NCBI GenBank assembly: GCA_028691835.1
Contig: JAQUYN010000025.1
Coordinates: 1 to 32,507, forward strand
From: Alphaproteobacteria bacterium
GTDB taxonomy: Bacteria; Pseudomonadota; Alphaproteobacteria; UBA9219
Reading direction: 5' to 3'
Length of the DNA stretch: 32,507 nucleotides
Both the position numbers and the translations under genes were made by a program. Below, in pieces: positions 2,276 to 27,524 of the stretch. Under the pieces are notes generated by a model. The model saw only the letters and a list, made by a program, of their open reading frames with translations. It was not told where the DNA came from and made no database searches. Every line of letters starts with the position of its first letter. The stretch's first letter is position 1.

Positions 2276-2278
2276 GGA

Positions 2279-2878
2279 TCACACGCGGATTTCTATAATC
2301 GGAATGTCCGACCATTCATGAAGATTGAAGTTTTCAATACTGACATCCATCTCGTCCGTGTCGAAGCGAACGGGCACGTCGAACTCAAAATCTGCCGTGA
2401 TGATGGTGCCTTGTACGGGCGCTTCGGAGAAAGTGACAATCCCCGTGGTTGTGTTCACCGAAACACCCGTTGTGACCTTCACGCCACCGGCATAAATGAC
2501 AGCCGTGCCGGAAACGGGCTTGGTAATTGTACGGGTTTCGCTCCCCGCGCCGGACTCATACCCTTTAACCAGTTGAAATACCTGCGTTTCATCATCGCCA
2601 AGGCCTATTTGCTGCCCCGTGGCCTTGTAATCCGTCCAGTCCTTAAAACGGAACCCGTGCGCCTTTCCTTTACGGGCACGAAAGAAGGCAATCAGAGTTT
2701 CAAGCTGGCTTGCGCGTTTAAGGCCGGATGATACATCCCATCGCCCCCGCGCAGCCGACCAGTTCATATTCCTCTGTTCATAACCGGAGGCCGTTGAGAT
2801 AACGGAAGTGGAATAAGCAGGCCCGCCCGATGCGCCATAGGCAATGTCATCAGGGAACCGAACTTCGTGGAAAGTCAT
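2279..2878 (-). CDS. DUF2460 distal tail protein
   Basis: A 199-residue protein with the recognisable DUF2460 pattern. The N-terminus reads FPDDIAYGASGGPAYSTSVI, followed by SGYEQRNMNWSAARGRWDVS, then FFRARKGKAHGFRFKDWTDY, and it ends in an acidic/aromatic beta-rich part. In GTAs this is the gp12 distal tail (Dit-like) protein that links the tube to the hub. The start has a GGAG five bases upstream. A perfect 10-bp palindrome (TGTTATAACA, 2889-2898) lies just upstream, in the short space shared with the divergently transcribed HNH gene. Confidence 0.9.
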   Translation of the reverse strand: MTFHEVRFPDDIAYGASGGPAYSTSVISTASGYEQRNMNWSAARGRWDVSSGLKRASQLETLIAFFRARKGKAHGFRFKDWTDYKATGQQIGLGDDETQVFQLVKGYESGAGSETRTITKPVSGTAVIYAGGVKVTTGVSVNTTTGIVTFSEAPVQGTIITADFEFDVPVRFDTDEMDVSIENFNLHEWSDIPIIEIRV

Positions 2879-2888
2879 GGTAACTCCA

Positions 2889-2903
2889 TGTTATAACAAG
2901 CTT
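2889..2903. promoter_or_regulatory. Overlapping palindromes in the divergent gap between DUF2460 and HNH genes
   Basis: The 46-base divergent space holds the perfect palindrome TGTTATAACA (2889-2898), overlapping a second one, CAAGCTTG (2896-2903). Such symmetry in a divergent gap could be an operator for the cargo gene. There is no direct evidence of binding and it could be chance. Confidence 0.25.
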
Positions 2904-2924
2904 GCGATATTCTTGTGAGGAACA

Positions 2925-3641
2925 ATGGGCAAGGGATACAAAAATAAAACTTGCGTTTATTGCGGGCGCGAAGGCTGTTCAGAAACAGCAGATCACGTTG
3001 TTGCAAGGGAATTTTTTCTTAAGAGCCAAAGGGCTAATCTGCCTAAGGTTCCTTCGTGCGCGAAATGTAATGGAGAAAAATCATCCTTAGAACATTACTT
3101 AACCACAGTTCTTCCTTTCGGGGGAAGGCATGCAGATGCAACAACCAATCTTAGCGAAATGGTGCCTCAACGGTTAGAAAAGAATGCAAAACTACGTCGC
3201 CATCTCATTTCCGAAAAAGGCCGTATCTGGTCAGAAGAGGCTGGTTTACTTCTTCCCCATATGACCCTCCCTATAGATTCGGATAAACTTAATCAGTTGT
3301 TCTGCTACATTATAAAAGGACTAATTTGGCATCATTGGGGGTTGTTGTTACCGTGTGATTATTTCATTGGGGCGTCCTCTCTAACTAAAGAAGGGGAATC
3401 CTTTTTCCTCGATTTGTTTAACAAAAATCCAAGACGCGAAGTCAATGTTTCTTTAGGAAAGGGAACCTTCAAATATGAAGGAAGGCAAGGAACAGATGAT
3501 CCATATATTACACTTTGGAGATTTACGATTTATGGTGGGGTTGTTTTCTCCGAGAGTTCGCTTTTTCCGAGCGAGAAGACGTCGATAACTTGGGGACTAA
3601 CCTGTCACAATTCGCTAAATCCAAACTATATCTTTCAGTAG
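2925..3641 (+). CDS. HNH-type zinc-binding protein, cargo gene beside the tape measure
   Basis: A 238-residue protein on the strand opposite to the phage late genes. The N-terminal 60 residues carry an HNH/zinc-ribbon pattern: C10-x2-C13, D23-H24 (ADHVVAREFF), C45-x2-C48-N49 (SCAKCNGEKSS) and H57. This fits the HNH nuclease fold with a structural zinc site. The remaining 180 residues match nothing I know. They contain an aromatic stretch (KGLIWHHWGLLLPCDYF) and a beta-rich end. The coding region is visibly more AT-rich than its neighbours, suggesting separate acquisition. GAGGA lies a few bases before the ATG. The stop codon lies one base from the tape measure stop, so it fits tightly as a convergent insertion. 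A role in defence, superinfection exclusion or homing is only inferred. Confidence 0.75.
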   Translation: MGKGYKNKTCVYCGREGCSETADHVVAREFFLKSQRANLPKVPSCAKCNGEKSSLEHYLTTVLPFGGRHADATTNLSEMVPQRLEKNAKLRRHLISEKGRIWSEEAGLLLPHMTLPIDSDKLNQLFCYIIKGLIWHHWGLLLPCDYFIGASSLTKEGESFFLDLFNKNPRREVNVSLGKGTFKYEGRQGTDDPYITLWRFTIYGGVVFSESSLFPSEKTSITWGLTCHNSLNPNYIFQ

Positions 3642-3642
3642 A

Positions 3643-6165: not shown

Positions 6166-6245
6166 GGTTCGGATTCCCCTTTTCTTTTCGTGCTTATGAC
6201 TTAGAATAAACTCACCCGTGAACGATGAGTGTTTCAGAGTGAAAA

Positions 6246-6908
6246 ATGGAATTTCTGCTTATAATTGCTTTTCTTTTTGTTTTCAGCCTTATAGCCGCTT
6301 TTTTGTCATCACCTCGCCGTCGAGGGGCAGTTGGTGAAAGGCGCATTCGCAGACGATTGGCGCGTTTCGAAAAGAAAGATGGAGGGAAGATCCTCTCCAA
6401 TGTTTACATCCCCAAAATGTCGGGCGGCACTACTGAAATTGATCTTCTTCTAATTCATCCAAAGGGGTTGTTCGTTTTTGAAAGCAAAAACTACAGCGGT
6501 TGGATTTTTGGAAATGAAGCCCACCAAAATTGGACACAGACACTCCCAAAAGGCTGGCATGGAGATGTTCACAAGGAACGATTTTACAATCCGATACGGC
6601 AAAATGCTTCTCATATAAAACATCTCATGCCACACGTTAGAAAACGTGTTCCTGTATGGTCTGTCATCGTATTCTCAGATGAATGTGAACTCAAAAACAT
6701 TACGGTAAGAAGTCCAAACGTTTGTGTTGTTCATTGCTGTCATGTTGCTTCCATCGTTAAACAAGTATGCTCTGAGACAGAAACAGATTTTCTAACTGAG
6801 GCAGATATAGACGAGCTTTATAACACGCTCCTCACTTATACGGACGTTAGCCAAGAAGAAAAAAGACATCATGCACAACAGGCTTTTGAGGCAAAACAAC
6901 GCCTTTAA
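6246..6908 (+). CDS. Membrane-anchored NERD-domain nuclease-like protein
   Basis: A 220-residue protein. Residues 2-21 form one transmembrane segment followed by a basic stretch (SSPRRRG), so the domain should face the cytoplasm. Residues 25-150 match the NERD (nuclease-related) domain: G30-E31, then TEIDLLLIHPKGLFVFESKN containing D66 and E79-x-K81, a PD-(D/E)xK-like active site. The later NPIRQN segment is also typical of the family. NERD domains occur in several anti-phage and DNA-handling proteins, but no partner helicase or kinase domain is present here. The gene is plus-strand, AT-rich, and sits between the GT chaperone and the tape measure. Its TAA shares a TTAA with the convergent GT stop. 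The Shine-Dalgarno is weak. Nuclease chemistry is inferred from motifs only. Confidence 0.85.
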   Translation: MEFLLIIAFLFVFSLIAAFLSSPRRRGAVGERRIRRRLARFEKKDGGKILSNVYIPKMSGGTTEIDLLLIHPKGLFVFESKNYSGWIFGNEAHQNWTQTLPKGWHGDVHKERFYNPIRQNASHIKHLMPHVRKRVPVWSVIVFSDECELKNITVRSPNVCVVHCCHVASIVKQVCSETETDFLTEADIDELYNTLLTYTDVSQEEKRHHAQQAFEAKQRL

Positions 6909-7267
6909 AAATCCTTGGCGGCTGTCCCAACTTTTTCATTTATAGCAGCGACAAGGCCAGATTCACAGGACGGCAAAAGCTCGGCCAGCGCGTGAAGGTC
7001 ATAACCCAAGGCTTCGCCGACTTTGAGCGCAGCATCCATGTCAATACCCGCAACGCCGAACTGCGCCACGCGAAGTTGGCCGGAGCAACGCAGGATGACA
7101 TCCCACGCTTGCCAGCCTTCCATAGTTTGGGGTTCGCTCTCACAGTAGGGGCAGCGTTTACCTTCATGATTGGCCTTGCCTTTACTGCATGGCAGATCAG
7201 CGTCCGCACATGCGCCGCAATAAGAAGGCCCGCCGCCAAAATGCCATTTAGCGCGAGCCTCTAACCG
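6905..7267 (-). CDS. Tail assembly chaperone T extension (made by -1 frameshift from G)
   Basis: This frame continues the G chaperone after a -1 shift at the slippery site 7273-7267. The fused product would have 112 residues of G plus 120 encoded here, 232 in total. The open frame extends upstream to 7336, but the first part lies inside the G gene and has no ribosome binding site, so an independent start is unlikely. The extension begins RLEARAKWHFGGG and carries possible metal-binding cysteines (YCGACADADLPC and RCPYC). It then has a conserved-looking block WDVILRCSGQLRVAQFGVAG and DMDAALKVGEALGYD, seen in phage tail proteins of this position. In lambda the G and GT forms bind the tape measure and recruit tail tube subunits. 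The stop overlaps the stop of the convergent NERD gene. Confidence 0.8.
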   Translation of the reverse strand, partial: RLEARAKWHFGGGPSYCGACADADLPCSKGKANHEGKRCPYCESEPQTMEGWQAWDVILRCSGQLRVAQFGVAGIDMDAALKVGEALGYDLHALAELLPSCESGLVAAINEKVGTAAKDF

Positions 7268-7602
7268 TTTTTTTCCTGTTCCAGAAGCAGGGTTGGGCTT
7301 AGATAAAGACGCTCGAAAGCATCCGCCATCGGCCACAAATCCATAAGAGCTTCTACGCCTGCGTCCGTAACGTTAGCAGGCTTGTCCTTATCATCGGCAA
7401 CGCCTTCCCATTCCGTAATGGCAAGCGTGGCCAGCTTCTTAATAAGCGCCGCACTTCGCCCACCAGCATCCTCCGTATCGGCTTTAAGCGCAGACACACG
7501 CGCCGCCATCACAAGGGCGGTCGAGGCGGGATGCACCTTGACGCGCACCCCATAGCCAAGATCAAGCCAATAATCTTCACGCTTTAGGTCGAGTTTTATC
7601 AT
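7261..7602 (-). CDS. Tail assembly chaperone (lambda G-like)
   Basis: A 113-residue, mostly helical protein immediately after the tail tube gene (ATGA overlap at 7599-7602) and before the tape measure. The N-terminus reads MIKLDLKREDYWLDLGYGVR, a beta strand pair followed by helices, matching the general form of siphovirus tail chaperones. It ends with a lysine-coding A-rich run that is the frameshift site. The protein is expected to be made in excess over the GT form and to coat the tape measure during tail assembly. The functional call rests mainly on gene order and on the frameshift, since sequence conservation in this family is low. Confidence 0.8.
   Translation of the reverse strand: MIKLDLKREDYWLDLGYGVRVKVHPASTALVMAARVSALKADTEDAGGRSAALIKKLATLAITEWEGVADDKDKPANVTDAGVEALMDLWPMADAFERLYLSPTLLLEQEKNG
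7267..7273 (-). promoter_or_regulatory. Programmed -1 ribosomal frameshift site A AAA AAC
   Basis: On the minus strand the end of the G gene reads CAG GAA AAA AAC GGT TAG. The heptamer A AAA AAC is in the correct phase for tandem slippage (AAA AAC to AAA AAA), and the next -1 codon is CGG at 7267, exactly the frame of the long downstream open frame. It lies six bases before the zero-frame stop codon. This is the same arrangement as the lambda G/GT programmed frameshift, although lambda uses a different heptamer. Confidence 0.85.
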
Positions 7603-8543
7603 GCGTAGCTCTCCACATCATTTGTTAAGGCAACCGTGAGCATTTGCCCTGCGGCAGTGTTTTTGGCAGCTTGCCAGTTGAAAGAAGCCTGAATGCCTCC
7701 AGCTCCATCAATCGGAAGCTTGGGCTTGGGCAGATAAACCTCGTGCGCGGTAAAGATCAGCGAACGCTCGGCATCAATCGTGTAGCCGAATGACAAAGCC
7801 ACCGCTGTGTTGTCGGTTGCCGCATCAAGAAGCGTTGTGTCCGCAAAGCGCACATCAATTGTTCCCGTGAACGCGGCTACCGTCGGGTCGGCCCCGTCAA
7901 TTTTGCCGTCGTCTCGAATTGTTTCGATCTTTTCGAGATTGTTTGTGTAAGTGAATTGTGCGCCCGTGACGTTGCCAAGCTGTATGCCATCCTTTTTGAC
8001 GCTTCCCTGAAACTGGTTGAAGCGCGTGATGACAAGCTCGGTCGGCGTTCCGCCCAAAGTGGCCGCAGCGCGATCTTCTCCTTGAGCAATGCAGCTCATC
8101 GTCGCCTTTGCCCCACCGGAACGCTCAAAAGAGACCTGCATCGAATTGGCCCGAACGCCGCTATTCATGAAATAGCTGGAGGCTTCCGGCGTTCCGACTT
8201 CCAGCGATAAGCTTGGCAAAGAGGTTGCGCCGGATTTGAAGGTATGAACGTAAGGCGCTTCAATCCCCGTCGTTACGGGTGCACCCAGCAAGGCGCGAAG
8301 CCAATAGCCGATATAACGAAGATCGACAGGCACAACCACGTCGCCTTCGACGTTGATAACGTCACGCATAGGCTGCGCAGGATCGCGGCCTTGCCCCAGA
8401 AGGTCGGACTCAATCAGCCCTTGTTCTGAACCAAGTTGCGAGGAAATAAAGGGAAACTTGATAAAGTCGCTCGATGGCGCAGTGCCATAAACGCTTTCAA
8501 ATTGACCCAATAGCTGCGCGTTCGCGCCGTAGGCTCGTGACAT
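7599..8543 (-). CDS. Major tail tube protein
   Basis: A 314-residue beta-rich protein. Features seen in tail tube subunits (phage_tube_2-like) are the opening SRAYGANAQLLGQFESVYGT, a KFPFISSQLGSEQGLIESD segment, the GYWLRALLGAP motif and a repeated strand-turn pattern. The C-terminal part (residues 180-314) resembles a second copy of the same fold (VTGAQFTYTNNLEKIETIRD), which suggests a duplicated tube domain as found in several long siphovirus tube proteins. It polymerises around the tape measure. A strong Shine-Dalgarno (GGAGG, five bases before the ATG) suits a highly expressed structural protein. It is followed with a 4-base overlap by the G chaperone. Confidence 0.85.
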   Translation of the reverse strand: MSRAYGANAQLLGQFESVYGTAPSSDFIKFPFISSQLGSEQGLIESDLLGQGRDPAQPMRDVINVEGDVVVPVDLRYIGYWLRALLGAPVTTGIEAPYVHTFKSGATSLPSLSLEVGTPEASSYFMNSGVRANSMQVSFERSGGAKATMSCIAQGEDRAAATLGGTPTELVITRFNQFQGSVKKDGIQLGNVTGAQFTYTNNLEKIETIRDDGKIDGADPTVAAFTGTIDVRFADTTLLDAATDNTAVALSFGYTIDAERSLIFTAHEVYLPKPKLPIDGAGGIQASFNWQAAKNTAAGQMLTVALTNDVESYA

Positions 8544-8576
8544 GGTACCTCCAATTTTTAGGGGAAAGAAAAACCG

Positions 8577-9005
8577 CTAACCGAGTTGGCTGGCGGTCAC
8601 ATAGATAAGTTCAATAGGGACAATGGCCGTTTGAACGCTTGGCGCACCCTCGATTGCCAGCGTGTCCGTGTCGGGCGCTTGCGGCGTTACGCGATCACAT
8701 AAACCGCCCAGTGTTGGATCATTTGAGAGAACGGCGGCAATTTCTTGAAACAGTGCACCCATCGTCTGGTTGCGCGTGTCGCCGTCAAGGGCTTGAACAA
8801 AGATTTCAAGCGAGGCCGAATGTTCCCAATAGTAAGAGAGCGGTGAGAGCATGGTTTCGGGTTCGCCTGGGTCACCATCGCGCAAAATCAAAAGACCTTC
8901 TGGCGGGATTCTCTCCGGCAAGGGGTCGTTGCGCAGGATTTTGGGGCCAGAGATTGTCTGCAAGGCTGCAAACAAGGCTTTCAGGATCGTTTCGCGTGTC
9001 GTCAT
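8577..9005 (-). CDS. Minor tail / tail terminator protein (lambda gpU-like position)
   Basis: A 142-residue protein starting MTTRETILKALFAALQTISG. It has a helix at the start, then strands (GLLILRDGDPGEPE) and an ending IVPIELIYVTASQLG. This short alpha/beta profile and the position between the gpZ-like and tail tube genes match tail terminator (gpU-type) proteins that cap the tail and connect it to the head. Its start overlaps the stop of the upstream gene (ATGA). The call rests mainly on gene order and overall shape. Confidence 0.65.
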   Translation of the reverse strand: MTTRETILKALFAALQTISGPKILRNDPLPERIPPEGLLILRDGDPGEPETMLSPLSYYWEHSASLEIFVQALDGDTRNQTMGALFQEIAAVLSNDPTLGGLCDRVTPQAPDTDTLAIEGAPSVQTAIVPIELIYVTASQLG

Positions 9006-9646
9006 GTGTCAGATGACTCTTTCCAGTTTTCAATCACGAGCGGTTCAAGGTTGTTGCTCCACTTTGCCACCGCGCACTTTACGTCGAGGCGTTTTTTCAA
9101 GGAGACCTGCGGGATAAGAACGAACATCGGCACGGTTGTTTGGCCCTTACTCGTTTTGGCTTTTGCAAACCCGCCGCGCTTGCCTTTTCGCGCCCGCATG
9201 TTCTCGGCAATAAGGATCGGGTTGTTGCCGCCCGTGCGTTTGACAAAAACAAGCTTTTGCTTGTTGTGTTCTTCCCAGTTTTTTGGGGTAAGTTTGCGCC
9301 GTCCCGCCAACTTGCCTGCTGCGGGGAGAGGGATCGGGAGATAAGCGCCCGTGTGTGAGCGAATGATGGCTCCCGTATCAAAGACGGTGATAATCTGCGG
9401 TGCGTTGCTCCAAACAAAACCAGCCGTATTCAGGCTCATCCTGCCCTTGGGGTACGTCTTGCCGCGCCACGTAAAGGCCAGCTTTTTGCCAAGCCCTGCG
9501 CCTGTCACCTGATCGCGCAATTCCGTTTTGAGATGATCCGTTGTTTCGCGGACACCCAGCGTTACGGCACGTTCTGCTGCTGCGACTTCCTGTTTCATGA
9601 TCTTTTCAAGATCACCGCGCAGGGCGACAAACAAACGTGGGTTCAT
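9002..9646 (-). CDS. Tail completion protein (lambda gpZ-like / DUF6441-like)
   Basis: The chosen ATG at 9646 overlaps the upstream stop (ATGA), giving 214 residues; the frame is open to another start at 9670, which would overlap its neighbour more. The protein has a helical N-terminus (LEKIMKQEVAAAERAVTLGV) and a basic middle rich in Lys/Arg/Gly (TWRGKTYPKGRMSLN, NMRARKGKRGGFAKAK). The C-terminus is predicted helical with aromatic residues. Phage minor tail proteins in the gpZ/gpU neighbourhood have this form. They act at the head-proximal end of the tail. DUF6441 is my best guess for the family; I cannot verify it without a profile search. Confidence 0.6.
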   Translation of the reverse strand: MNPRLFVALRGDLEKIMKQEVAAAERAVTLGVRETTDHLKTELRDQVTGAGLGKKLAFTWRGKTYPKGRMSLNTAGFVWSNAPQIITVFDTGAIIRSHTGAYLPIPLPAAGKLAGRRKLTPKNWEEHNKQKLVFVKRTGGNNPILIAENMRARKGKRGGFAKAKTSKGQTTVPMFVLIPQVSLKKRLDVKCAVAKWSNNLEPLVIENWKESSDT

Positions 9647-9954
9647 AAAGGAACCACGTTTAATGTCCAAACCAGCCGCTCACGGTCAGCCGTCGGCTCG
9701 GATTGCACCTGATAGGTCACGCCATCCACCGTGAGCCTGTCTCCCACTTGTGGCGCAGGAACATCGGATGCTTGCACGTCAAAGATATGTGTCTCGCTGT
9801 GGATTTGCGCATCGCCAAAGCTTGTCAGCGTATCCGGCTGTTTGGCGATAACGCGCACAGGTTTTGTTTCTGCGCTCCCGATAGAAAGGTAAGCAGCGTC
9901 CTTTGCAAGATGAGGGTCAGCAAAGAACGCTGCTATGGCTGCGGCAAAAGCCAT
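9643..9954 (-). CDS. Head-tail connector (lambda gpFII-like)
   Basis: A 103-residue protein located directly after the major capsid gene, sharing a TAATG with its stop. The N-terminal helix (MAFAAAIAAFFADPHLAKDA) is followed by a beta barrel-like part with RVIAKQPDTL, a VGDRLTVDGVTYQV hairpin and a short C-terminal strand (LVWTLNVVPL). This matches the gpFII connector fold and its place in lambda-like heads, where it forms the surface to which the tail binds. The last bases overlap the next gene's start. Assignment is by shape and order. Confidence 0.7.
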   Translation of the reverse strand: MAFAAAIAAFFADPHLAKDAAYLSIGSAETKPVRVIAKQPDTLTSFGDAQIHSETHIFDVQASDVPAPQVGDRLTVDGVTYQVQSEPTADRERLVWTLNVVPL

Positions 9955-10961
9955 TAAGCCACACCCTTAATCAGCACCTTTGGACGGGTGCAGATTGGCA
10001 GAGGGTTGGCTTGTGTGTGAAGTTTGACCCAGCGTCCGAACTCCATATCGACGGCCTGTTTTGCATAACGGGGCAAACCGATAGTGTTGACCGTTTCAAC
10101 AAAATCCGCAGGCGCGTTGTATTGCCGGAAAAGGCCCTGTACCCCAACGGGGAACAAACGGACTTCGCCGTCTTCAATGGAACACCCGCTGCCGCCGTGA
10201 TATTCCTCAAAGACGATGCCCGCGTAGTCAAACTGACCACGCGCTTGACCGCGCCTTAAGAAGATGCCCTCCTGAAAACGATCATAAGCCGCTGTGACTT
10301 CCTCATGCGTAACCAGCGCGTCAAAGAAGCTGGCCGAGCAGAAAGCATGGATATGATCGTAAGGAACCGCCCCAAGCGCGTTTTCCATTGTGCGCTTGAT
10401 TTGGTGGCACAGCTTTTTGATCGCGCCGTTGGCAGGGTTGGTGTTGTCGAGATCAAAATCCACGTCACTATTGGCCTCAACATTGAACTCGTCGAAGAGG
10501 TTATAAAGAACGCTTACCCCATCCGCGTCGATAACCTCGCCCTTGATTGCGCCAAGACGCAAATTTTCAAGGGTAAGGTCGTGTTTTGCGGCCATCTCCC
10601 CAAGGCGTTCATTCACGACGGTTTGAACGCTTTGAACAGCGGTTTCGCTGCCAAACTCCCGAACGCCTTGGACTTCATCGGCAAGGATGGTGTCTTCAAG
10701 TGTCAAGTGCGTGGTTAGCAAAGAACGGGCTTTGCGTTTGTTGTGCTTATTTTGTGTTGCGGGCGCACCACGGGGCGAAGTTGGGATCAGCTCAAGCGAA
10801 CCTTCCTTTTCTTCAATCATGATGGAGATTGTCGAAACCCCGCTTTCCCTGAAAAGGCCAAGCTGTCCGACTTGTCCAGGGAGATAGGGCATTTTGTTGA
10901 TGGCATCGGTCAGTGACGTGACCGAAAACGCATCATTTGAGAAAATATCAAGCATAGGCAT
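9954..10961 (-). CDS. Major capsid protein, lambda gpE family
   Basis: 335 residues from the ATG at 10961, which has AAGGA about nine bases upstream; the frame extends to 10982 but without a comparable site. The sequence fits the lambda gpE family of HK97-fold capsid proteins: MLDIFSNDAFSVTSLTDAIN at the N-terminus, then the FRESGVSTISIMIEEKEGSL segment, a long helix (LGEMAAKHDLTLENLRLGAI) and a C-terminal part with GRWVKLHTQANPLPICTRPK. Length is close to lambda E (341). It forms the capsid shell together with the upstream decoration protein, and would be shaped by the S49 protease and scaffold encoded further upstream. A hairpin and U-run separate it from the decoration gene. Confidence 0.95.
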   Translation of the reverse strand: MPMLDIFSNDAFSVTSLTDAINKMPYLPGQVGQLGLFRESGVSTISIMIEEKEGSLELIPTSPRGAPATQNKHNKRKARSLLTTHLTLEDTILADEVQGVREFGSETAVQSVQTVVNERLGEMAAKHDLTLENLRLGAIKGEVIDADGVSVLYNLFDEFNVEANSDVDFDLDNTNPANGAIKKLCHQIKRTMENALGAVPYDHIHAFCSASFFDALVTHEEVTAAYDRFQEGIFLRRGQARGQFDYAGIVFEEYHGGSGCSIEDGEVRLFPVGVQGLFRQYNAPADFVETVNTIGLPRYAKQAVDMEFGRWVKLHTQANPLPICTRPKVLIKGVA

Positions 10962-10984
10962 AAGAGGCTTTCCTTTCTGCATAG

Positions 10985-11018
10985 AAAAAGCCCCGCACTT
11001 TTGAAAAGCACGGGGCTT
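10985..11018 (-). terminator. Intrinsic-terminator-like hairpin between decoration and capsid genes
   Basis: The stem AAGCCCCG (10988-10995) pairs with CGGGGCTT (11011-11018), with two mismatches and a further four pairs inside. On the minus strand it is followed by a T run (complement of 10985-10989). It lies between two highly expressed head genes, so it is more likely a partial terminator or an RNA-stability element that adjusts their ratio than a full stop. Confidence 0.6.
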
Positions 11019-11037
11019 GATTGGTGGTTAAGGCGTG

Positions 11038-11688
11038 TTAGAGCGCAGACCTTGCTAGGATCACTTGCTTTCTGAACTCGGAAAGTGCGACGGCTTTTTG
11101 AACATCCGTAGCGCCTGTGAACCAGATCAGCTCGGCCTCATTGACTTCCGCATGGCGGGAGATGATGACGGCTTCCTTGTCCCCATCGGTTGCGTCCACA
11201 TTGTCCAGCAAAAGGGCAACTGGCGTTTGCGAACCATCGGTGTTGGCGGGATTGTATTCCTTGTACTTTCCTGATCCCGCCGAGACCGTAATGGTGAAGA
11301 CATCACCCGCTGCAAAGTCAGTGGAACCCGCCGTCAGGGTGAAATTAATCTCCCCTGCGAAGGCCGCGCCGACTTCTGCCGATCCAATGGTTACGCCATC
11401 GGGATCTTCGACCGAGAAAGTTCCAGCGCCCGTGGCTGGCTCAATGCAGGTGATTTTGTAATCCCCCACCTTTGCGCCTGTACCGACGGATACGCTTGAA
11501 AGCGCCCCATCGCCCGTATTGCCGGAAGAGGCTGCGCCGGAGGCTGTACCAACCGACACCTTGCCAAGAACATGACCCGCCTTGAGGTTTTGCCCTGCAA
11601 GAATGGTCACGGTCTCCCGCGAGATTGTACCTTCGCCCTCTGTCACGAGGAACTCGGCTTTATGTTGACCTTCTGTAACTTCTGTCAT
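11038..11688 (-). CDS. Capsid decoration protein (lambda gpD-like, with inserted domain)
   Basis: A 216-residue protein, about twice lambda D (110). The N-terminal part (FLVTEGEGTISRETVTILAG followed by QNLKAGHVLGKV) and the C-terminal part (QTPVALLLDNVDATDGDKEA, then AVIISRHAEVNEAELIWF) together form the gpD-like fold. The stretch from about residue 60 to 145 (ASGAASSGNTGDGALSSVSV, then a strand-rich FTLTAGSTDFAAGDVFTITV) looks like an inserted Ser/Gly/Thr-rich beta domain. Such insertions occur in many bacterial phage D proteins and probably project from the capsid surface. The gene has AAGGAG eight bases before the ATG, among the strongest sites here, suiting a protein needed in hundreds of copies. 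Confidence 0.85.
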   Translation of the reverse strand: MTEVTEGQHKAEFLVTEGEGTISRETVTILAGQNLKAGHVLGKVSVGTASGAASSGNTGDGALSSVSVGTGAKVGDYKITCIEPATGAGTFSVEDPDGVTIGSAEVGAAFAGEINFTLTAGSTDFAAGDVFTITVSAGSGKYKEYNPANTDGSQTPVALLLDNVDATDGDKEAVIISRHAEVNEAELIWFTGATDVQKAVALSEFRKQVILARSAL

Positions 11689-11747
11689 GGTTTAGGCTCC
11701 TTTTTTGGTTGAACGCGACTACTCTGTGACCGACGTATGCACGTCGC

Positions 11748-12113
11748 TCACAACCGTGACTGCGTTTTTGTGTTATTGCGTGATGCGTAGATTGCCGCCG
11801 TGTCGATTTTTGCCTCACCGGACGGCGTGGGGGCTGGCACATGCCCTGTGATGGCCGTGGCTTCAGCCTGTTTGGCTTTGCTTTCCAGCAGGGCCTTCCG
11901 TACCTCGGCAACCGGAACGGTCTTTTTGATAAAGGCCTCTGCCTTTTCAGGTGCTCCTGCCAAAGAGCAAAGGTCTTGCACTTCGGTCATGTAGGCTTGG
12001 GCTTCTGCAAAACCTTCGGCTTTGGCCTGTTTGAGAAGTTCCTCTTGCGAGGCCGCGACATCCAGTGCTTGTTCTTGCGCTAGGGGAGTCGGTGTTTCTT
12101 CGGCTTGTGTCAT
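11748..12113 (-). CDS. Nested scaffold protein (lambda Nu3-like internal start)
   Basis: An in-frame ATG at 12113 inside the S49 gene begins MTQAEETPTPLAQEQALDVA and gives a 121-residue helical, acidic protein. It has its own Shine-Dalgarno, AAAGGA eight to nine bases upstream (around 12122-12127), stronger than that of the long form. The ATG falls exactly at the border between protease and scaffold parts. This mirrors lambda C/Nu3, where the scaffold is made separately in excess from within the protease gene. Production of the short form is inferred from the site. Confidence 0.75.
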   Translation of the reverse strand: MTQAEETPTPLAQEQALDVAASQEELLKQAKAEGFAEAQAYMTEVQDLCSLAGAPEKAEAFIKKTVPVAEVRKALLESKAKQAEATAITGHVPAPTPSGEAKIDTAAIYASRNNTKTQSRL

Positions 12114-12980
12114 GAAAACATCCTTTCTGTTGGGTGGGGTTGAGAGAAGAGAAGAAAGATCGGCCAGCGCCACCTCAAAGGTGCCGATTTTGTCGGCAAG
12201 GCCTGCGCTCACAGCGTTATCGCCAAAAAAGAGCGAGGCTTCCGTTTGACGAACAGTCTTTGCATCAAGCCCGCGACCTGTTGCGACGCATTGAATGAAC
12301 ATGGCGTAGATGCGGTTCACTTCTTTTTGCAAAGCGTTTCGTGCTGGATCGGCCAAAGGTTTATGAGGAGAGTAATCGTCTTTATGATCGCCTGCGAAAA
12401 TGGCCGTATATTTGAGGCCTTCGTCTTCATCCGCTTGGCTTTGATCGAGATGGACGGCAATCACGCCGATAGAGCCAACACCGCCCGTGCGCGAGACGTA
12501 GATACGCTGAGCGGATGCCGCCAACGCAAAGGCTGCGGAAAAGGCTTCTTCATTGGCAACAGCCCAGACGGGTTTCTCCTGCCGCGCCGCATAAATCTGA
12601 TCGGCCAGATCAAACACGCCGCCCGCTTCACCCCCTGGGCTATCAATATCAAGCAAGATTGCCCGCACAGATGGATCAGAAACCGCGCCAGCCAATTGCG
12701 CTGAAAGCTCGGCATAGCTAGTTAAACCGCTTAAAGCTTCCAGACCCACCGTGCGCCGGACAAGCGTTCCAAGGATAGGAATAATGGCAACGCCATCACC
12801 TGTGACCTCATAGTTGCGCGTCTTTTTAGGAACTGTATCTATCGCAGTCGCGGTTGCGCGAAGCGCAGAGCAGTCGCGATCAAACTTAGGAGCAAGAATG
12901 CCCAAGATCACTTCCAGCTTGGCGTGGCTAATCATGAGGGGCGCAGAAAAGATGCGTCCTGCGATATGGGGCAAGATCAT
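11748..12980 (-). CDS. S49 capsid maturation protease (lambda gpC-like) with C-terminal scaffold
   Basis: A 410-residue protein. Residues 60-260 are a SppA/S49 protease domain: the LLDIDSPGGEAGG oxyanion segment at 109-121, the nucleophile S148 in EEAFSAAFALA, the G166-G167 and IGVIAVH segment, and the candidate general base K200 in AGDHKDDYSPHKPL. Residues 290-410 are Ala/Glu/Gln/Lys-rich and helical, the scaffold part. In lambda, gpC and its co-terminal scaffold Nu3 guide capsid assembly and processing. Here the same arrangement exists, with an internal start at M290. The start overlaps the portal stop by 4 bases (ATGA). The active site looks intact. Confidence 0.92.
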   Translation of the reverse strand: MILPHIAGRIFSAPLMISHAKLEVILGILAPKFDRDCSALRATATAIDTVPKKTRNYEVTGDGVAIIPILGTLVRRTVGLEALSGLTSYAELSAQLAGAVSDPSVRAILLDIDSPGGEAGGVFDLADQIYAARQEKPVWAVANEEAFSAAFALAASAQRIYVSRTGGVGSIGVIAVHLDQSQADEDEGLKYTAIFAGDHKDDYSPHKPLADPARNALQKEVNRIYAMFIQCVATGRGLDAKTVRQTEASLFFGDNAVSAGLADKIGTFEVALADLSSLLSTPPNRKDVFMTQAEETPTPLAQEQALDVAASQEELLKQAKAEGFAEAQAYMTEVQDLCSLAGAPEKAEAFIKKTVPVAEVRKALLESKAKQAEATAITGHVPAPTPSGEAKIDTAAIYASRNNTKTQSRL

Positions 12981-14521
12981 GCGTTTTCGTCTTTCTCTTC
13001 GGGATTGTCGGAAGGCTTGTCTTCGGCGTTTTCGTCCGGCTCTTTGTTCTCGTCGGGCGTATCTTCCGTTCCAGCTTTGGGCGCGTCCGATGTTGTGCCT
13101 GTCTTGATGCCAAGCTTTTTCTTTCGCGCATTATCCTCGGCAATACGTTGATAGGTCTCATCGACGTTATTGCCTTCGGCTTCAATAATGTCGCTTGGCG
13201 CTTTCCAGCCCATTTCTTGCGCGATCTTTTCAGCCTGACGGTCTTTAAGAGGATCGACCCATTCCCAGCGCGGCTTGATCCATTTGACCCTGTTATAAGG
13301 GCGCGGGTTTCGAACAAATTGAGGGAGACGCAGCGCCCCAGACAGCACAGCGGTTTCCAGCCAGCGCCGCCAGACCGGACGGCATAGCTGGTAAATCATG
13401 GTCATTTCTTGGAACTGATTCAAACGGCGGCGAAACTCGACGGTGCCGGCTCTCGTGCTTGAATAATTGGCTGACTTAAGATCGCCCGTCACATTGGCAT
13501 AAGGAACGCCCAGCGCCGCTGAAATGGCCAAGAGGGTGCGATATTGAAAGACCTCATAAGAGCCGCCAACATCCGCAGGGGATGAGAACTTAATGTCTTC
13601 GCCTGGCAACAAAACCTGCATTGTGCCAGGGGAAAGACCTGCAATGGCAGAGCCGTTTTCATCAGCATCGCCTTCACCGATCAATTTGTCTTCCGGTGAA
13701 TCCTTGGTGATGAACCCAGCGAAGAGAGCCGCGACCTTCTTGCGATCCAGTTCCGCATCGTCATATTGGTCGAGCAAAAACAGCTTAACCAGCGCAGGCG
13801 CAATCCAAGGAACGCCTCGGATTTGTCCAGGGCGCTGCGGGCGGTAGATATGAAGAACCTCCGAAGCCGGAACGCGCACAATCTCACCTGTATTGCCGTT
13901 TTCCGTGCTGTCCCCTGGATGCTTGCGATAGAAATGATAGGCAACACGCTTGCCGATCCCGTTAAACTCGATCCCGCACCGGATGCTGTTGCCTCTGGCT
14001 CCCATTTCTGTTTTGGAGAGCGGCAACATCTCGCTTTCCAAAAGCTGAAGCTGCAAAGGAACGGAAAGCCCGTCAGATTCCCGCCGAGGCCGAAAGCGAA
14101 TAAAACACTCGCCAGCTTCAAAGAGAGCATGGGCGATAAGTGCCTGCATCCCGAAAAAATCTATCAGCCCATCGGCGTCGGCCTCTAGCGCCCAATCTTT
14201 CCAAAGCTGAATAATCTCGTCTTTCAACACTTCGTCTTCAATCAGGCACGAAGGGCGGATGCCATCGCCAATGGCATTTGAAACAAAGCTATTCGCCGCA
14301 TTAGATGCGTAAGGGTTAGAGCGCACAATCTGCCGCGCCCGTGCCCGCAGCAGGTCGCCACCGCTTGAGACAAGGCCGTTGATATTCTGCTCGGTTGCTT
14401 TCCACGCAATAAGCCTGCGCTTGGCCATCGCACCTTCAAAGCCGCCCGACAAAGCAGACATGGACAATCGTCCGGTGGCAGCGTATTTGGCCGCTGCCCC
14501 GATACGGGAAAACAGATTCAT
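12977..14521 (-). CDS. Portal protein, lambda gpB family
   Basis: A 514-residue protein that fits the lambda-family portal: an N-terminal Arg-rich segment (RLIAWKATEQNINGLVSSGG, then DLLRARARQIVRSNPYASNA) and the conserved GDGIRP motif. The central crown/stem region has LLESEMLP, NSIRCGIEFN and HIYRPQRPGQIRGVPWIAPA, followed by the TYR-type FQYRTLLAISAALGVPYANV motif and SANYSSTRAG. The last 60 residues are acidic and disordered-looking. It forms the dodecameric DNA channel at one capsid vertex. AAGGA lies eight bases before the start. It directly follows gpW and overlaps the S49 gene. The terminase that normally precedes this block is not in the window. Confidence 0.95.
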   Translation of the reverse strand: MNLFSRIGAAAKYAATGRLSMSALSGGFEGAMAKRRLIAWKATEQNINGLVSSGGDLLRARARQIVRSNPYASNAANSFVSNAIGDGIRPSCLIEDEVLKDEIIQLWKDWALEADADGLIDFFGMQALIAHALFEAGECFIRFRPRRESDGLSVPLQLQLLESEMLPLSKTEMGARGNSIRCGIEFNGIGKRVAYHFYRKHPGDSTENGNTGEIVRVPASEVLHIYRPQRPGQIRGVPWIAPALVKLFLLDQYDDAELDRKKVAALFAGFITKDSPEDKLIGEGDADENGSAIAGLSPGTMQVLLPGEDIKFSSPADVGGSYEVFQYRTLLAISAALGVPYANVTGDLKSANYSSTRAGTVEFRRRLNQFQEMTMIYQLCRPVWRRWLETAVLSGALRLPQFVRNPRPYNRVKWIKPRWEWVDPLKDRQAEKIAQEMGWKAPSDIIEAEGNNVDETYQRIAEDNARKKKLGIKTGTTSDAPKAGTEDTPDENKEPDENAEDKPSDNPEEKDENA

Positions 14522-21597: not shown

Positions 21598-21615
21598 ATG
21601 CGATAGGAAGTCTTG

Positions 21616-23850
21616 ATGTTTGTTTTGCGATTTATTCTTCCGTTACTGCTCGCGCTGACGAGTCTGGCCATTGTTGCGACGCCTCTGGCGGAAGGTCTTG
21701 TGTCTCGATGGTTTCAGCGTGATGTTGAGTTGCGTGCGACACTTATTTTCCAGTCTGTTGAATATTCGTTGACAGATTTGTGGAATCAAGGGAAGCGCTT
21801 GGAATCCTATAAAAAGTTGTTTGATAATATAGCTCGTGATGAACGGGTCCTTGCTGTTGGCATTTGCTCGGCAGAAGGTAAGCTTGTCACAAAAAGCGCG
21901 CAATGGCCGACAAACTTTGCTTGTCCGGCCTCTTTGTTGACCCCAGAGCCAATGTTTGTCGTTCAGAATTTAGATAAAGGTGCGCTGTTGTCAGGAAGCT
22001 TCCAGCTTCCCGTTGAGGATACGTTGAAGCCACGTTTTATTGTTTTGCATGATTTAAGCTTTGCCCTTCAACGTGAAAGTGAAACGCAATACTATTTGAT
22101 TGGATTCTTGATCATTGTTTCTTGTGTCGCCGCATTCGTGACATTGTTGACGGCGCGGATTACGATGCGGAGTTGGATCGGTAAGCTGCGCCTGACTTTT
22201 AGTGATCCGAAGGCGCGTTGGTCCCAGCAGCGCTTGCCGCGCGAGTTTGTTCCAATCGTCCGCGAAGTGCGGCAAATGCTTCGAGATATTAAACCTGGCG
22301 CGTATCCTTTGGAAAATATCAAGGTCGATTGGACGCCCCAAGCTCTTCATCGTTTGTTGAAACAAGAATTGCCGGATTCAGAAGTTATTGTTGTTTCAAA
22401 TCGTGAGCCATATATTCATAATCTTGTTGACGGCAAAGCTGTTTTACAACGTCCGGCAAGTGGTGTCGTTACGGCTTTGGAGCCGATCACACGGGCTTGC
22501 AAAGGGACATGGATTGCCCATGGCAGCGGATCGGCAGATCGACAGGTTGTGGATGAGAATGATCGTATTGCCGTTCCTCCCGATCATCCCGAATATGCTT
22601 TGCGTCGCGTTTGGCTGACACCGGAGGAGGAAGAAGGATATTATTACGGTTTGTCTAATGAAGGGCTTTGGCCTCTTTGTCACATTACCTTTGTTCGACC
22701 GACTTTCCGCGAGAGCGATTGGTTGGCCTATAAAGCTGCGAACCGGAAGTTTGCTGAAGCCGTGGTACAAGAAGCCAAGACAAAAAATCCGATTGTTCTT
22801 GTGCAGGATTACCATTTTGCTCTTCTTCCCAAATATGTGCGTGAGTTGTTGCCTGACGCGACAATTATCACTTTTTGGCATATTCCTTGGCCAAACCCTG
22901 AAGTCTTTAGCATTTGTCCTTGGCGTGAAGAGATTTTACAGGGGCTTTTAGGAAGTTCTGTGCTTGGTTTTCACACGCAATTTCATTGTCAAAACTTCAT
23001 GGACTCGGTTGATCGATTCCTTGAAAGTCACATCAATCGTGATCAGTCGATTATTACGGTGGGTGGAAACGCAACATTAATCCGTCCTTACCCTATATCA
23101 ATCGCTTGGCCCCCAGAGGGGCTGGCTGATGTTGCTGCGGCAGACGTTTGCCGCCAAGCTGTGTGTCAACGTTTTGCCCTTGATAAGGAGATCCGTATCG
23201 GTGTCGGCATTGAACGTTTTGACTATACAAAGGGGATTATTGATCGTTTTCTCGCTATTCGTGAATTCTTGATCGACTATCCGGAATGGCGAGGAAAGTT
23301 TACGTTTATACAAGCGGCGGCCCCGACGCGGAGTCAGTTGTCTTCTTATCAGACGATTCAAAAAGAAACGTATGAGGTTGCAGCTGCAATTAATTCTGAA
23401 TTCGGAAATGAACATTATAAACCCATTATTCTTTTGGGCCGCCATCATGAACCTCAGGAGGTTTTCGAGCTTTTTCGTGCGGCAGATTTTTGTGTTGTCA
23501 GCAGCCTTCATGACGGCATGAATCTTGTTGCCAAGGAGTTTGCGGCTACGCGGGAAGATGAGCGCGGCGTCTTGATTCTCAGCACCTTTGCTGGCGCATC
23601 TAAGGAGCTTTTGGAAGCCCTGCTTGTTAATCCATATGATGCCAAGGGAATGGCAACGGCCATGCATCGTGCCTTGATGATGCCACCAGAAGAACAGACG
23701 GATCGTATGCGGTTGTTGCGTGAAATGATCCGTGACAATAACGTCTATTATTGGGCCGCGCATATTCTCATGGATGCTGCACAATTACGTAAACGCGCCA
23801 ATCTTGAATCTTTTATTTCTGAAACATCCGAACAGAAAGATGCTTTGTAA
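21616..23850 (+). CDS. otsA: Trehalose-6-phosphate synthase (GT20) fused to a membrane sensor-like region
   Basis: 744 residues from the ATG at 21616 (AGGAAG five bases upstream). Residues 4-24 and 159-180 are transmembrane. Between them an extracytoplasmic part of about 130 residues has the pattern LFDNIARDERVLAVGICSAE, then GKLVTKS, like a PAS/Cache sensor. A linker (180-250) precedes the GT20 domain: VIVVSNREPY, PASGVVTALEPI, VLVQDYHFALLP, FWHIPWPNPEVF, GIERFDYTKGI and SLHDGMNLVAKEF, with donor- and acceptor-site motifs intact. The enzyme makes trehalose-6-phosphate from a nucleotide-activated glucose and glucose-6-phosphate. Typical OtsA has about 470 residues and no membrane part. The related glucosylglycerol-phosphate synthase cannot be excluded, but the adjoining otsB supports trehalose. 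Membrane sensing of osmotic state is inference. Confidence 0.88.
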   Translation: MFVLRFILPLLLALTSLAIVATPLAEGLVSRWFQRDVELRATLIFQSVEYSLTDLWNQGKRLESYKKLFDNIARDERVLAVGICSAEGKLVTKSAQWPTNFACPASLLTPEPMFVVQNLDKGALLSGSFQLPVEDTLKPRFIVLHDLSFALQRESETQYYLIGFLIIVSCVAAFVTLLTARITMRSWIGKLRLTFSDPKARWSQQRLPREFVPIVREVRQMLRDIKPGAYPLENIKVDWTPQALHRLLKQELPDSEVIVVSNREPYIHNLVDGKAVLQRPASGVVTALEPITRACKGTWIAHGSGSADRQVVDENDRIAVPPDHPEYALRRVWLTPEEEEGYYYGLSNEGLWPLCHITFVRPTFRESDWLAYKAANRKFAEAVVQEAKTKNPIVLVQDYHFALLPKYVRELLPDATIITFWHIPWPNPEVFSICPWREEILQGLLGSSVLGFHTQFHCQNFMDSVDRFLESHINRDQSIITVGGNATLIRPYPISIAWPPEGLADVAAADVCRQAVCQRFALDKEIRIGVGIERFDYTKGIIDRFLAIREFLIDYPEWRGKFTFIQAAAPTRSQLSSYQTIQKETYEVAAAINSEFGNEHYKPIILLGRHHEPQEVFELFRAADFCVVSSLHDGMNLVAKEFAATREDERGVLILSTFAGASKELLEALLVNPYDAKGMATAMHRALMMPPEEQTDRMRLLREMIRDNNVYYWAAHILMDAAQLRKRANLESFISETSEQKDAL

Positions 23851-24579
23851 ATGTGGTTGCGTTTTAATCCCGCAAGGGATGCCCTGTTTCTTGATATTGA
23901 TGGGACGTTACTTGATATTGCCCCCACGGCGCGTGAGGTTGTCGTTTCACATCAACTGATCAAAGATCTCGGATGTTTACACGATAAACTTGGCGGCGCT
24001 TTGGCTTTTATCAGCGGTCGCACAATTGAAGATATTGACGGGCTTTTTGCGCCATTACGATTGCCCTGTTCGGGTGTGCATGGCGCGGAATGGCGACTGT
24101 CTTCGCGTGGACCCATAAAAAATATTGCGCCTTTATCCGAAGATTTTCGAAATAAGATCATCGATGCGTTTGCAAAAATGAAAGGCGTCCGCGTGGAAGA
24201 CAAGGCTTTCACGCTTGCTGTGCACTTTCGGCAATCGCCAGAGTTTGCGGAGAAAATTGAGAAAACATTATCCTCAATTATTGAAAAAGCGGACAAGGAT
24301 CTTTTGCTTGTCCCAGGTCGCAAGGTTTTTGAAGTTTCGCAAAGTTCGCATGATAAAGGCCAAGCTCTTGAGCGTTTGATGTCCGTGCCTCCCTTTAAAG
24401 GACGCCGCCCCGTTTTTCTCGGCGATGATGTTACGGATTTGTCGGCCATTGGTGCTTGTTTGAAAAGGGGCGGCATTGCGGCACGTGTCGGCCAAGGCAA
24501 CAAGACTCCTCAGAATGCATTTGCAGATCCTGATGCCGTTCGGACTTGGATTAAAACAATGATGATTGAACTCGCGTGA
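23851..24579 (+). CDS. otsB: Trehalose-6-phosphate phosphatase
   Basis: A 242-residue HAD-superfamily protein of the OtsB type. Motif I is LDIDGTLLD (D15, D17), motif II includes SGR (55-57), then GVHGAEWR, and K169 in DKG with GDDVTD (191-196) completes the metal site. It dephosphorylates trehalose-6-phosphate to trehalose. The ATG follows the synthase stop directly (TAAATG), so the pair forms a translationally coupled operon. Length is normal for the bacterial family (about 240-270). The C-terminus ends in a helix (DAVRTWIKTMMIELA). Confidence 0.93.
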   Translation: MWLRFNPARDALFLDIDGTLLDIAPTAREVVVSHQLIKDLGCLHDKLGGALAFISGRTIEDIDGLFAPLRLPCSGVHGAEWRLSSRGPIKNIAPLSEDFRNKIIDAFAKMKGVRVEDKAFTLAVHFRQSPEFAEKIEKTLSSIIEKADKDLLLVPGRKVFEVSQSSHDKGQALERLMSVPPFKGRRPVFLGDDVTDLSAIGACLKRGGIAARVGQGNKTPQNAFADPDAVRTWIKTMMIELA

Positions 24580-24764: not shown

Positions 24765-26534
24765 TTAAGTTTTTGGCGTGTCCAGAATATAGGGAATATC
24801 GATGGCAATGATGGTTCCTTGTCCTGCGACAGAGGATACCTTTAATGTGCCGCCTATCGCCTTGACCTGCGCCACAACGGTTCCCATGCCGATGCCCCGC
24901 CCAGAATATAGACTGACTTGATCGCGAGAACTGACAGCATGGGTTAACATATCCTCAAGAATTTCTTGATCGTTTCGCTTGTTCCAATCAATATCATGAT
25001 ATTTGACGGTCAGTTTTTTTCGCAGTTTTGCCGTATCCACACCTGCGCCATCATCGGAAATCGTCACAACGAGTCGGTTCATGTTGATCTTCATTCCGAT
25101 GGAAATTTGTGCGGCGGGGGCTTTACCTTTTGCCTGCCGATCATCAGGCCGTTCAATACCATGGTCGATTGTGTTGCGGAAAAGATGAATAAACGAATCC
25201 AGCAAATCTCGATAAAAATCGACAATGACAGGAATGTCTTCATCAACAAAGAGGATCGGTTTGACCTTTTTGTTAAAACGTCCGGCTAAATCGGCAAGAA
25301 CAGTGTCATATCGTTTTAGATAGGTGCGAAGGGATTCGGCGCAAACATTGCGAAGGTAAAGTTCACGAAGTTCGTTTTGCCCCTTTTGCGCGAGTACGTC
25401 AGAAAAGGCGTAAAGCACTTTTTTGTCAAAATTACGTTCCGCCTCAATTCTGGTGATATCCATTCCTAACAGATCATGTAAATAAGCGGATAAAAAGGTG
25501 ACTTCCTGCGCAATTCTGTCCCGTATTTCATAAGCTGAAGCCAAAGAAGGATTGGTTTTATCGGAAAAAGAAAAAGAGGGCAGCGTCTCAAAAGGCTCCA
25601 ACGTAGTTTCTAAATCGTGTAGATCCTGCGCAATTTTGTTGAGCTTAAAGATCCCAGCATCCCCCTTCATCGTGTGAATTTCACGTCGCAGGTTTTCCAG
25701 ATTTACTTGCGGCCCTTGCCCGCGCAACGTTGTCAGTAATTCGTTGAGGCGGCGTATATGTGATCCAAAAAAAGCGCGATCACGAAAAATCTGTTCTAAT
25801 GATTCAAATAAGGCCCGCCGCTCTTCGGCGCTTTCCTGTTGGTGTACCTGTTCGGTAACATCCGTTGCGATCAAGATTATGCGGTCTAGCGCTCCATTCG
25901 GCAGCCTGTCGGGTTTATAGGTCAGCTTGATAATCGAGCCAGAGGAATGATAGTAAACCTTCGGCACAAAGCGCATGATCTCATAAAAAGACATGGCATG
26001 CGTCTGATTGAAAACCAGTTTTAACGCTGACTGCATCGTTGCCTTCTGTTTGGGGTCAAGGCGAAGAATTTCTGAAATCTGTTTACCTGTAGGTTCGATC
26101 TCAAGCAGCGCCTCACATGCCTTGGAATAGGTCGGCAAGCACAAGCCCGCACGATCAAGCATCATATAGCCGTGGCCAAGCGCGTTGATTAAAAGGCGAA
26201 TGGTACGGTTTGCGGTGGCCAATGCGTTGGCATCCGCGTTGTCGCCCTTTTTTTCTGTTGCTAAAGCATCCAAAATCGCCTGACCACGAGCCATTTGGTA
26301 TGGGTACATATCATCGGGCGCTTTAAGCTTCCAGATGGATTGAAGAATATAACGCGCACAGGATGGGTAATTGCTGCGACAAAATTGATCCTTTGTCGCT
26401 TCGGCTGTTTCCGGCATATTGGCCATCTTGTCGTTAAAAAAGATGCATCCCGGATAACGTTCACATAAAGGGGGTCTTGCGGAACAGGCAGAACACTGGC
26501 CGTGCGGGGGCTTTTGTTTTGGATCATCGGCCAT
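24765..26534 (-). CDS. CheA-like Hpt/HATPase histidine kinase with N-terminal cysteine cluster
   Basis: 589 residues; AGGAG eight bases before the ATG. Residues 14-59 hold six cysteines (C14, C17, C24, C30, C52, C59), a possible metal or Fe-S site. Residues 110-230 are PAS-like and end in ATDVTEQ, a common PAS boundary. A helical stretch contains the Hpt site H287 in LRREIHTMKGDAG. The ATPase domain follows, with an N box (HLFRNTIDHGIE, N454), G1 (DDGAGVD) and G2 (GRGIGMG). Unlike CheA there is no CheW-like regulatory domain at the end. It would phosphorylate the neighbouring CheY-like protein; with CheX it forms a three-gene unit. The signal is unknown; the Cys cluster suggests redox or metal. 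Confidence 0.88.
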   Translation of the reverse strand: MADDPKQKPPHGQCSACSARPPLCERYPGCIFFNDKMANMPETAEATKDQFCRSNYPSCARYILQSIWKLKAPDDMYPYQMARGQAILDALATEKKGDNADANALATANRTIRLLINALGHGYMMLDRAGLCLPTYSKACEALLEIEPTGKQISEILRLDPKQKATMQSALKLVFNQTHAMSFYEIMRFVPKVYYHSSGSIIKLTYKPDRLPNGALDRIILIATDVTEQVHQQESAEERRALFESLEQIFRDRAFFGSHIRRLNELLTTLRGQGPQVNLENLRREIHTMKGDAGIFKLNKIAQDLHDLETTLEPFETLPSFSFSDKTNPSLASAYEIRDRIAQEVTFLSAYLHDLLGMDITRIEAERNFDKKVLYAFSDVLAQKGQNELRELYLRNVCAESLRTYLKRYDTVLADLAGRFNKKVKPILFVDEDIPVIVDFYRDLLDSFIHLFRNTIDHGIERPDDRQAKGKAPAAQISIGMKINMNRLVVTISDDGAGVDTAKLRKKLTVKYHDIDWNKRNDQEILEDMLTHAVSSRDQVSLYSGRGIGMGTVVAQVKAIGGTLKVSSVAGQGTIIAIDIPYILDTPKT

Positions 26535-26614
26535 TTTACTTCTCCTGAATAAAGATAGAGCCTTTTCCGGTTAGGTTGGCGCTTATAGGGCGGGCCGATT
26601 TAACTGTGACTTGT

Positions 26615-27109
26615 CTAATGATATTGGGCAATCGCAATCCAGCATTCCTGTCCGTCTGCCAAGAAATCAATGCGCAGTTTCTCCGACTGAACAAAGCCTG
26701 TCTCGTTCATATCCTGTTCATGGATCAGCTGGGGAATGCCCATCGTTAATCCGTAGCCGTTGCCGTTGACCGATGTTTTGAAAAGCCCATAGATCATATT
26801 TGTGATTTCGCCAGCGGCGTCATCGATCATTGCCAGATCTTTCTGCTCATCTGGAAGATTAAGTACTTTTAATAGAAGGGGGCGTTTGAACGCGGCGATA
26901 AAGGCGCCAAACGGGACTCCATTGTCGGTTAGCTGGATTTGTGCAGCATGTCTGGCCTGCAGACCCAAATCGACATGGCGACCAATGTTGCATAAATCGA
27001 CGCATGTCGGCAGTTGAAAGGCCGAAACAAACGTCGTGTCGATGGCTGTTTGGATTGAAGCCGCTATGCAGTCGTTCAAGTCGAGAAAGCGAGGTTCAAC
27101 CATCCCCAT
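26615..27109 (-). CDS. cheX: CheX-like chemotaxis phosphatase
   Basis: A 164-residue protein. The CheX/CheC signature E..N is present as E101 and N104 in DDAAGEITNMIYGLFKTSV, and the N-terminal CIAASIQTAIDTTF helix also fits. CheX removes the phosphate from CheY-type regulators. It overlaps the CheY-like gene by 14 bases and is followed after 80 bases by the kinase, so the operon encodes a phosphorylation and dephosphorylation cycle. Only one E..N motif is present, as in CheX rather than CheC. An alternative start at 27103 exists. Confidence 0.85.
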   Translation of the reverse strand: MGMVEPRFLDLNDCIAASIQTAIDTTFVSAFQLPTCVDLCNIGRHVDLGLQARHAAQIQLTDNGVPFGAFIAAFKRPLLLKVLNLPDEQKDLAMIDDAAGEITNMIYGLFKTSVNGNGYGLTMGIPQLIHEQDMNETGFVQSEKLRIDFLADGQECWIAIAQYH

Positions 27110-27524
27110 CCAGCTCCGGCAACCCGTTTTTCCATCCTATGATGTCATTTATTTTGTGAATAAGAAGTTCTGGTTGGAAAGGTTTGGGGATGTAGGCTGT
27201 CGCCCCTTCCTCAATGGCTTTCAGAATGTTGGCGTCTTCGGATTCAGAGGAAACCATGACGATCATCATATCCTTTAGTCGCTCGTCTTTTCGGCAGGTG
27301 AGAAGAACGTCAAAACCGTTCATTTCCGGCATAGCCCAATCAAGGAAAACGATGTCATAAGGATGACCTTCGTCCGCTTTCTTACGGATTTTCTCGAGCC
27401 CCTCGCTTCCGTCTGCGGCCTCATGTGGCGTGGATGCGCCCAATCCTGTGACGACGCTTGCGATTGCACGTCGGGCAAAAGCATGATCATCGACAATTAA
27501 AAATGTTGTCTGACTTAAATCCAC
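27096..27524 (-). CDS. CheY-like single-domain response regulator
   Basis: 142 residues; start GTG at 27524 with GAGGG just upstream. The receiver fold is complete: D12-D13, phospho-acceptor D62 in FLDWAMPEMNG, S92-S93, Y111 and K114 in YIPKPF. No output domain. It is the first gene of the CheY-CheX-kinase operon and likely carries the signal to a partner elsewhere, for example a flagellar switch or another response protein. The sequence between it and the next gene (27525-27640) is AT-rich and probably holds the operon promoter, though I see no clear boxes. Confidence 0.92.
   Translation of the reverse strand: MDLSQTTFLIVDDHAFARRAIASVVTGLGASTPHEAADGSEGLEKIRKKADEGHPYDIVFLDWAMPEMNGFDVLLTCRKDERLKDMMIVMVSSESEDANILKAIEEGATAYIPKPFQPELLIHKINDIIGWKNGLPELDGDG

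Follow-up and report, generated by a model that had tools for sequence, protein, structure and literature searches.

In a 32,507-nucleotide stretch of DNA from an alphaproteobacterial metagenome assembly (hereafter the window), a three-gene operon encodes a kinase that combines CheA-like catalytic parts with a cysteine-bearing N-terminus. The locus raises two questions: what kind of circuit such a kinase serves when it has no domain for entering a receptor array, and what the cysteines contribute to it.

Operon layout and kinase anatomy

When the open reading frames were read, the operon that an earlier note on this DNA had proposed at 24765-27524 was found with all three genes in place, encoding a response regulator, CheX and the kinase; they lie on the minus strand, as do the features within them. 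The single-domain, CheY-like response regulator (142 aa; 27096..27524) begins at a GTG start codon and matches Pfam Response_reg (E 4.4e-23), with the acceptor residue D62 (27339-27341) and K114 both in place. Its reading frame overlaps by 14 nt that of a CheX-type phosphatase (164 aa; 26615..27109), which scores above the cut-off of the Pfam CheX model (E 3.2e-10), carries the catalytic pair E101/N104 (26798-26809) within a GEITN motif, and weakly matches the CheX/CheC structures 3iic, 3h2d and 3hm4; with both the profile match and the E-x-x-N motif by which membership is defined, it belongs by sequence to the CheX family and is predicted to dephosphorylate the partner CheY. The kinase (589 aa; 24765..26534) is thus encoded together with its own CheX and regulator, as the earlier note had held. 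Because a Shine-Dalgarno-like AGGAG (26542..26546), read directly in the sequence, stands 7 nt upstream of the kinase ATG, the N-terminus with its cysteines is probably genuinely translated; RNA folding gave no support for a structured 5' leader (z -0.37).

Pfam placed an Hpt domain at residues 262-312 of the kinase (25599..25751; E 1.8e-7) and a HATPase_c domain at residues 448-581 (24792..25193; E 2.2e-9), and the ATPase half matched solved CheA P4 structures at E 2.4e-26 from near residue 405 onwards. The phospho-acceptor H287 (25674-25676) is invariant in 22 of 22 family kinases, as are the N-box, G1 and G2 residues of the ATPase (N454; D494/G496/G498; G545/G547/G549). Between the cysteines and the Hpt domain, residues of about 110-228 (25851..26207) form a PAS-like region, recognized from conservation and from PAS_4 matches in 7 of the 22 homologues, the signal in the window kinase itself being too faint to register a match. 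Two cysteines of this region, C132 and C140 (G[IV]CxxVYSQAC), each recur in 21 of 22 family kinases, whatever the input type, and could possibly form a second redox site. No CheW-like (P5) domain was found with Pfam, the protein ending eight residues past the HATPase match, nor was a transmembrane segment found, whereas the type of this kinase that occurs across the order has one or two. The CheA-like Hpt and ATPase parts, the missing CheW-like domain, the solubility and the numbering of H287 and D62 were therefore all read correctly in the earlier note.

How close this protein stands to CheA can be judged against a survey in which P1, P3, P4 and P5 were the core domains, present in all CheAs surveyed (PMC10782961). 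The window kinase shares with CheA an Hpt (P1) domain with its phospho-histidine, a P4-like ATPase, a CheY-type partner and a CheX phosphatase, but it has no P5, no detectable P3 and input domains of its own, PAS-like and cysteine-containing. P3 (H-kinase_dim) gave no Pfam match in the window kinase, and its PDB matches begin at P4, although residues 330-440 may hold a diverged P3. Because P5 is absent and P3 was not detected, the window kinase is, on its domain content, no CheA under the published definition.

A kinase family with apparently interchangeable inputs

The earlier note had called for a search for the three-gene set across genomes, and such sets proved to be common in the window's order, where the gene order regulator-CheX-kinase is kept in nearly all loci examined. 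The window genome itself holds another such operon, on contig C96 next to ribosomal protein genes, which encodes a membrane-bound kinase; loci of this type, with one or two N-terminal transmembrane helices, came from nearly every genome of the order that was examined. HAMP-like or long membrane inputs mark a third type, which is found in a few genomes, in one case with adjacent regulator and CheX-like genes. (A bacteriohemerythrin gene, at 2847-3263 of locus L190, adjoins the HAMP-like kinase operon in genome G012 and is another possible oxygen input.) In a fourth type a FIST-domain gene lies between CheX and the kinase; G020 and G249, the latter outside the window's order, carry the complete arrangement of regulator, CheX, FIST and kinase, and G031 carries CheX-FIST-kinase at a contig end. 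A PAS-Hpt profile located the family in the window's order and in one more genome out of 385 that were sampled in the class. As far as these loci tell, the set of three genes belongs to a whole clade, and the operon is no one-off.

In a maximum-likelihood tree of 23 kinases, the window kinase grouped with the FIST-type kinase of G020 (support 99/97), within a clade of FIST-type kinases (100/99) that was separate from the membrane type; the window regulator is 50% identical to the regulator of the G020 FIST operon. The two closest homologues of the window kinase, at 44% and 39% identity, lack the cysteines and have a FIST sensor gene. The earlier note had named loss of the cysteines in close homologues as evidence against its reading, and taken literally this loss is what we found; in those homologues, however, a FIST gene takes the place of the cysteine domain, and other proteins do conserve that domain. 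Since the window operon, unlike the sister operons of G020, G031 and G249, lacks a FIST gene while its kinase groups with one from a FIST operon, the most economical interpretation is that a FIST sensor gene was exchanged for a fused cysteine domain in the window lineage. This apparent exchange is new here.

Against the NosP model of NCBIfam the FIST proteins of the sister operons reached E values of 1e-12 to 1e-16, and since these scores fall far below the model's cut-off, the proteins are better described as NosP-like than as NosP. Their operons resemble the pairing of NosP with NahK-type kinases in that a FIST-domain gene accompanies a PAS-containing kinase; they differ in that the kinase is of the Hpt/CheA type and not the HisKA type and that the FIST proteins score below the cut-off, and the window operon for its part lacks a FIST gene altogether. 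The window genome does keep one FIST gene, on contig C70, followed by a HisKA hybrid kinase whose PAS region is of the type seen in the window kinase, and this FIST protein could act in trans on the window kinase. The family would show how a CheA-type kinase can leave the receptor array while retaining CheX and a regulator, with membrane helices, HAMP regions, a FIST gene and a cysteine domain as interchangeable inputs.

A four-cysteine domain shared with free proteins and chemoreceptors

The N-terminus of the kinase had been described as a six-cysteine region. All six residues are present (C14, C17, C24, C30, C52 and C59), but they resolve into a four-cysteine domain at residues 24-90 (26265..26465), supported by profile, alignment and an AF2 model, and an additional CxxC (C14, C17; 26484..26495) that lies outside the conserved domain, is absent from the aligned kinases and precedes the profile, which begins at residue 24. 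The domain has the spacing C-x5-C-x21-C-x6-C together with an FFNDKM motif. A match on a Leptolinea plasmid supplied the motif with which genome contigs were then scanned as a DNA pattern; at least 80 loci were returned, 63 stretches being real copies among the matches listed. Single-sequence searches of viral, phage and genome collections with the cysteine region yielded nothing or chance matches, and four candidates (L035-L038) were rejected as chance matches with stop codons. With the window sequence left out of the profile, the window kinase still scored 71 bits, and none of 5000 shuffles passed.

In the 62-row alignment FFNDKM and the cysteines were fixed by the search pattern and filter, and their invariance there was not counted as evidence. 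About ten full-length divergent copies, obtained by profile search of the same genomes, keep all four cysteines while FFNDKM has drifted (CHYISSKL, CSYFVENL and CLFLHKQV are examples); the copy listed under L186 probably belongs to L229, with no effect on the number of cysteines. The AF2 model of the domain is all-helical, with a mean pLDDT of 89. None of the 62 members had a convincing match to a Pfam or NCBIfam model, no sequence match to the domain was found in the PDB, a fold search with the domain model gave no usable match, and a literature search turned up no publication on the domain or its motif, nor on CheX kinases without CheW. The cysteine region thus appears to be a small domain, spread over many phyla, that has no library entry, and its recognition is new here.

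Among the matches listed, the domain mostly stands alone as a free protein of about 70 residues, and the carriers include Anaerolineae, Desulfuromonadales/Geobacter, Spirochaetes, Thermotogae, Delongbacteria, Firmicutes, Methanolobus and others, lineages which we take to be mostly anaerobic. The Geobacter-type genomes of L081 and L117 (G665 and G676) hold four to five copies each, some with a degenerate FFNDKM. The domain also stands at the C-terminus of chemoreceptors, behind the MCP signalling domain, in two strains of Chromatium okenii and in Thiocystis minor, and as two tandem C-terminal copies in a receptor of a Spirochaetales metagenome-assembled genome (chemoreceptor-tail loci L048, L063, L114 and L186). 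Two-component genes were found within 3 kb of the free proteins in 9 of 59 loci, not clearly above background.

CZB modules bind metal through a His3-Cys site. They are the nearest functional parallel and are described as soluble, cysteine-containing metal modules on signalling proteins, among them the chemoreceptor TlpD and diguanylate cyclases (PMC6715182, PMC8262984). The domain described here differs in its four-cysteine pattern and in having no Pfam match, and no sequence relationship between the two was found.

We consider the four-cysteine domain to be, most likely, a cytosolic metal or Fe-S sensor of redox state or gas. More broadly, but only tentatively, it may represent an undescribed and widespread sensor of this kind in anaerobic prokaryotes, deployed as a stand-alone protein, at the tail of chemoreceptors and, fused to an array-free kinase, as a replacement for FIST. 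Four cysteines would also suit Zn(II), which they could bind structurally, and most copies are small free proteins; the domain might then be a zinc module for docking or dimerisation, with sensing left to the PAS-like region, perhaps through C132 and C140, which are retained even in family kinases without the four-cysteine domain. We regard this as unlikely, given that the domain stands in for a FIST sensor in the tree and is attached to chemoreceptors, and that its enrichment in anaerobic lineages is more in keeping with Fe-S or redox chemistry than with zinc alone. Because the domain is both exchanged with a FIST gene and present on chemoreceptors, a role as sensor is directly testable.

A candidate phosphorelay outside the receptor array

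Our preferred reading, to which we assign a probability of roughly 0.6, is that the operon encodes a CheA-derived phosphorelay located in the cytosol and operating outside receptor arrays, with the cysteine domain as an input replacing a FIST sensor. The kinase would autophosphorylate on H287 of its Hpt domain, the phosphate would pass to D62 of the operon's single-domain regulator, and CheX would strip it from D62 again. The input would be the N-terminal four-cysteine domain, which would bind a metal or an Fe-S cluster via C24, C30, C52 and C59, report redox state, oxygen or NO, and control the kinase through the PAS-like region to which it is joined. The ancestor would have been an operon of regulator, CheX, FIST and kinase in which a NosP-like FIST protein acted on the kinase, with FIST subsequently lost and the cysteine domain fused to the kinase in its place. 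Gene content, domain anatomy, catalytic residues, the kinase tree and the retention of the four cysteines in divergent copies were observed, whereas the direction of phosphotransfer, the cofactor, the signal and the output of the regulator are inferred; so is the redox- or metal-sensing closed circuit of the earlier note, and the circuit may not be closed.

Elsewhere the window genome encodes a canonical CheA with two CheW domains, a CheW protein and 11 receptor domains, because of which we take the window kinase not to be the array kinase. The same genes lend something to a doubtful alternative, in which the kinase belongs to ordinary chemotaxis as a side branch and would phosphorylate CheY of the flagellar pool, influencing swimming alongside the canonical CheA and its receptors; the top NCBIfam model of the operon's regulator is indeed CheY (E 2.7e-23), yet far below that model's cut-off. 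That the operon supplies its own regulator and CheX argues for insulation, however, and the kinase has no CheW-like domain by which to enter an array.

The fusion was seen in one metagenome-assembled genome only (2.54 Mb in 146 contigs, 5% contamination), the domain being found in none of 32 other genomes searched in the window's order and none of 397 others sampled in its phylum, but a functionless assembly or evolutionary accident is very improbable, as the fusion is in-frame behind a ribosome-binding site, its four cysteines and the kinase active-site residues are intact, and the tree places the kinase among relatives from its own order.

The window holds two other groups of genes. From about 1 to 14500 on the minus strand it carries prophage-type morphogenesis genes (portal, S49 peptidase, tail tube and tape measure), and at 21613-24579 on the plus strand a trehalose-6-phosphate synthase and phosphatase pair, in which the synthase has a membrane-anchored N-terminal extension of ~250 residues ahead of its catalytic domain.
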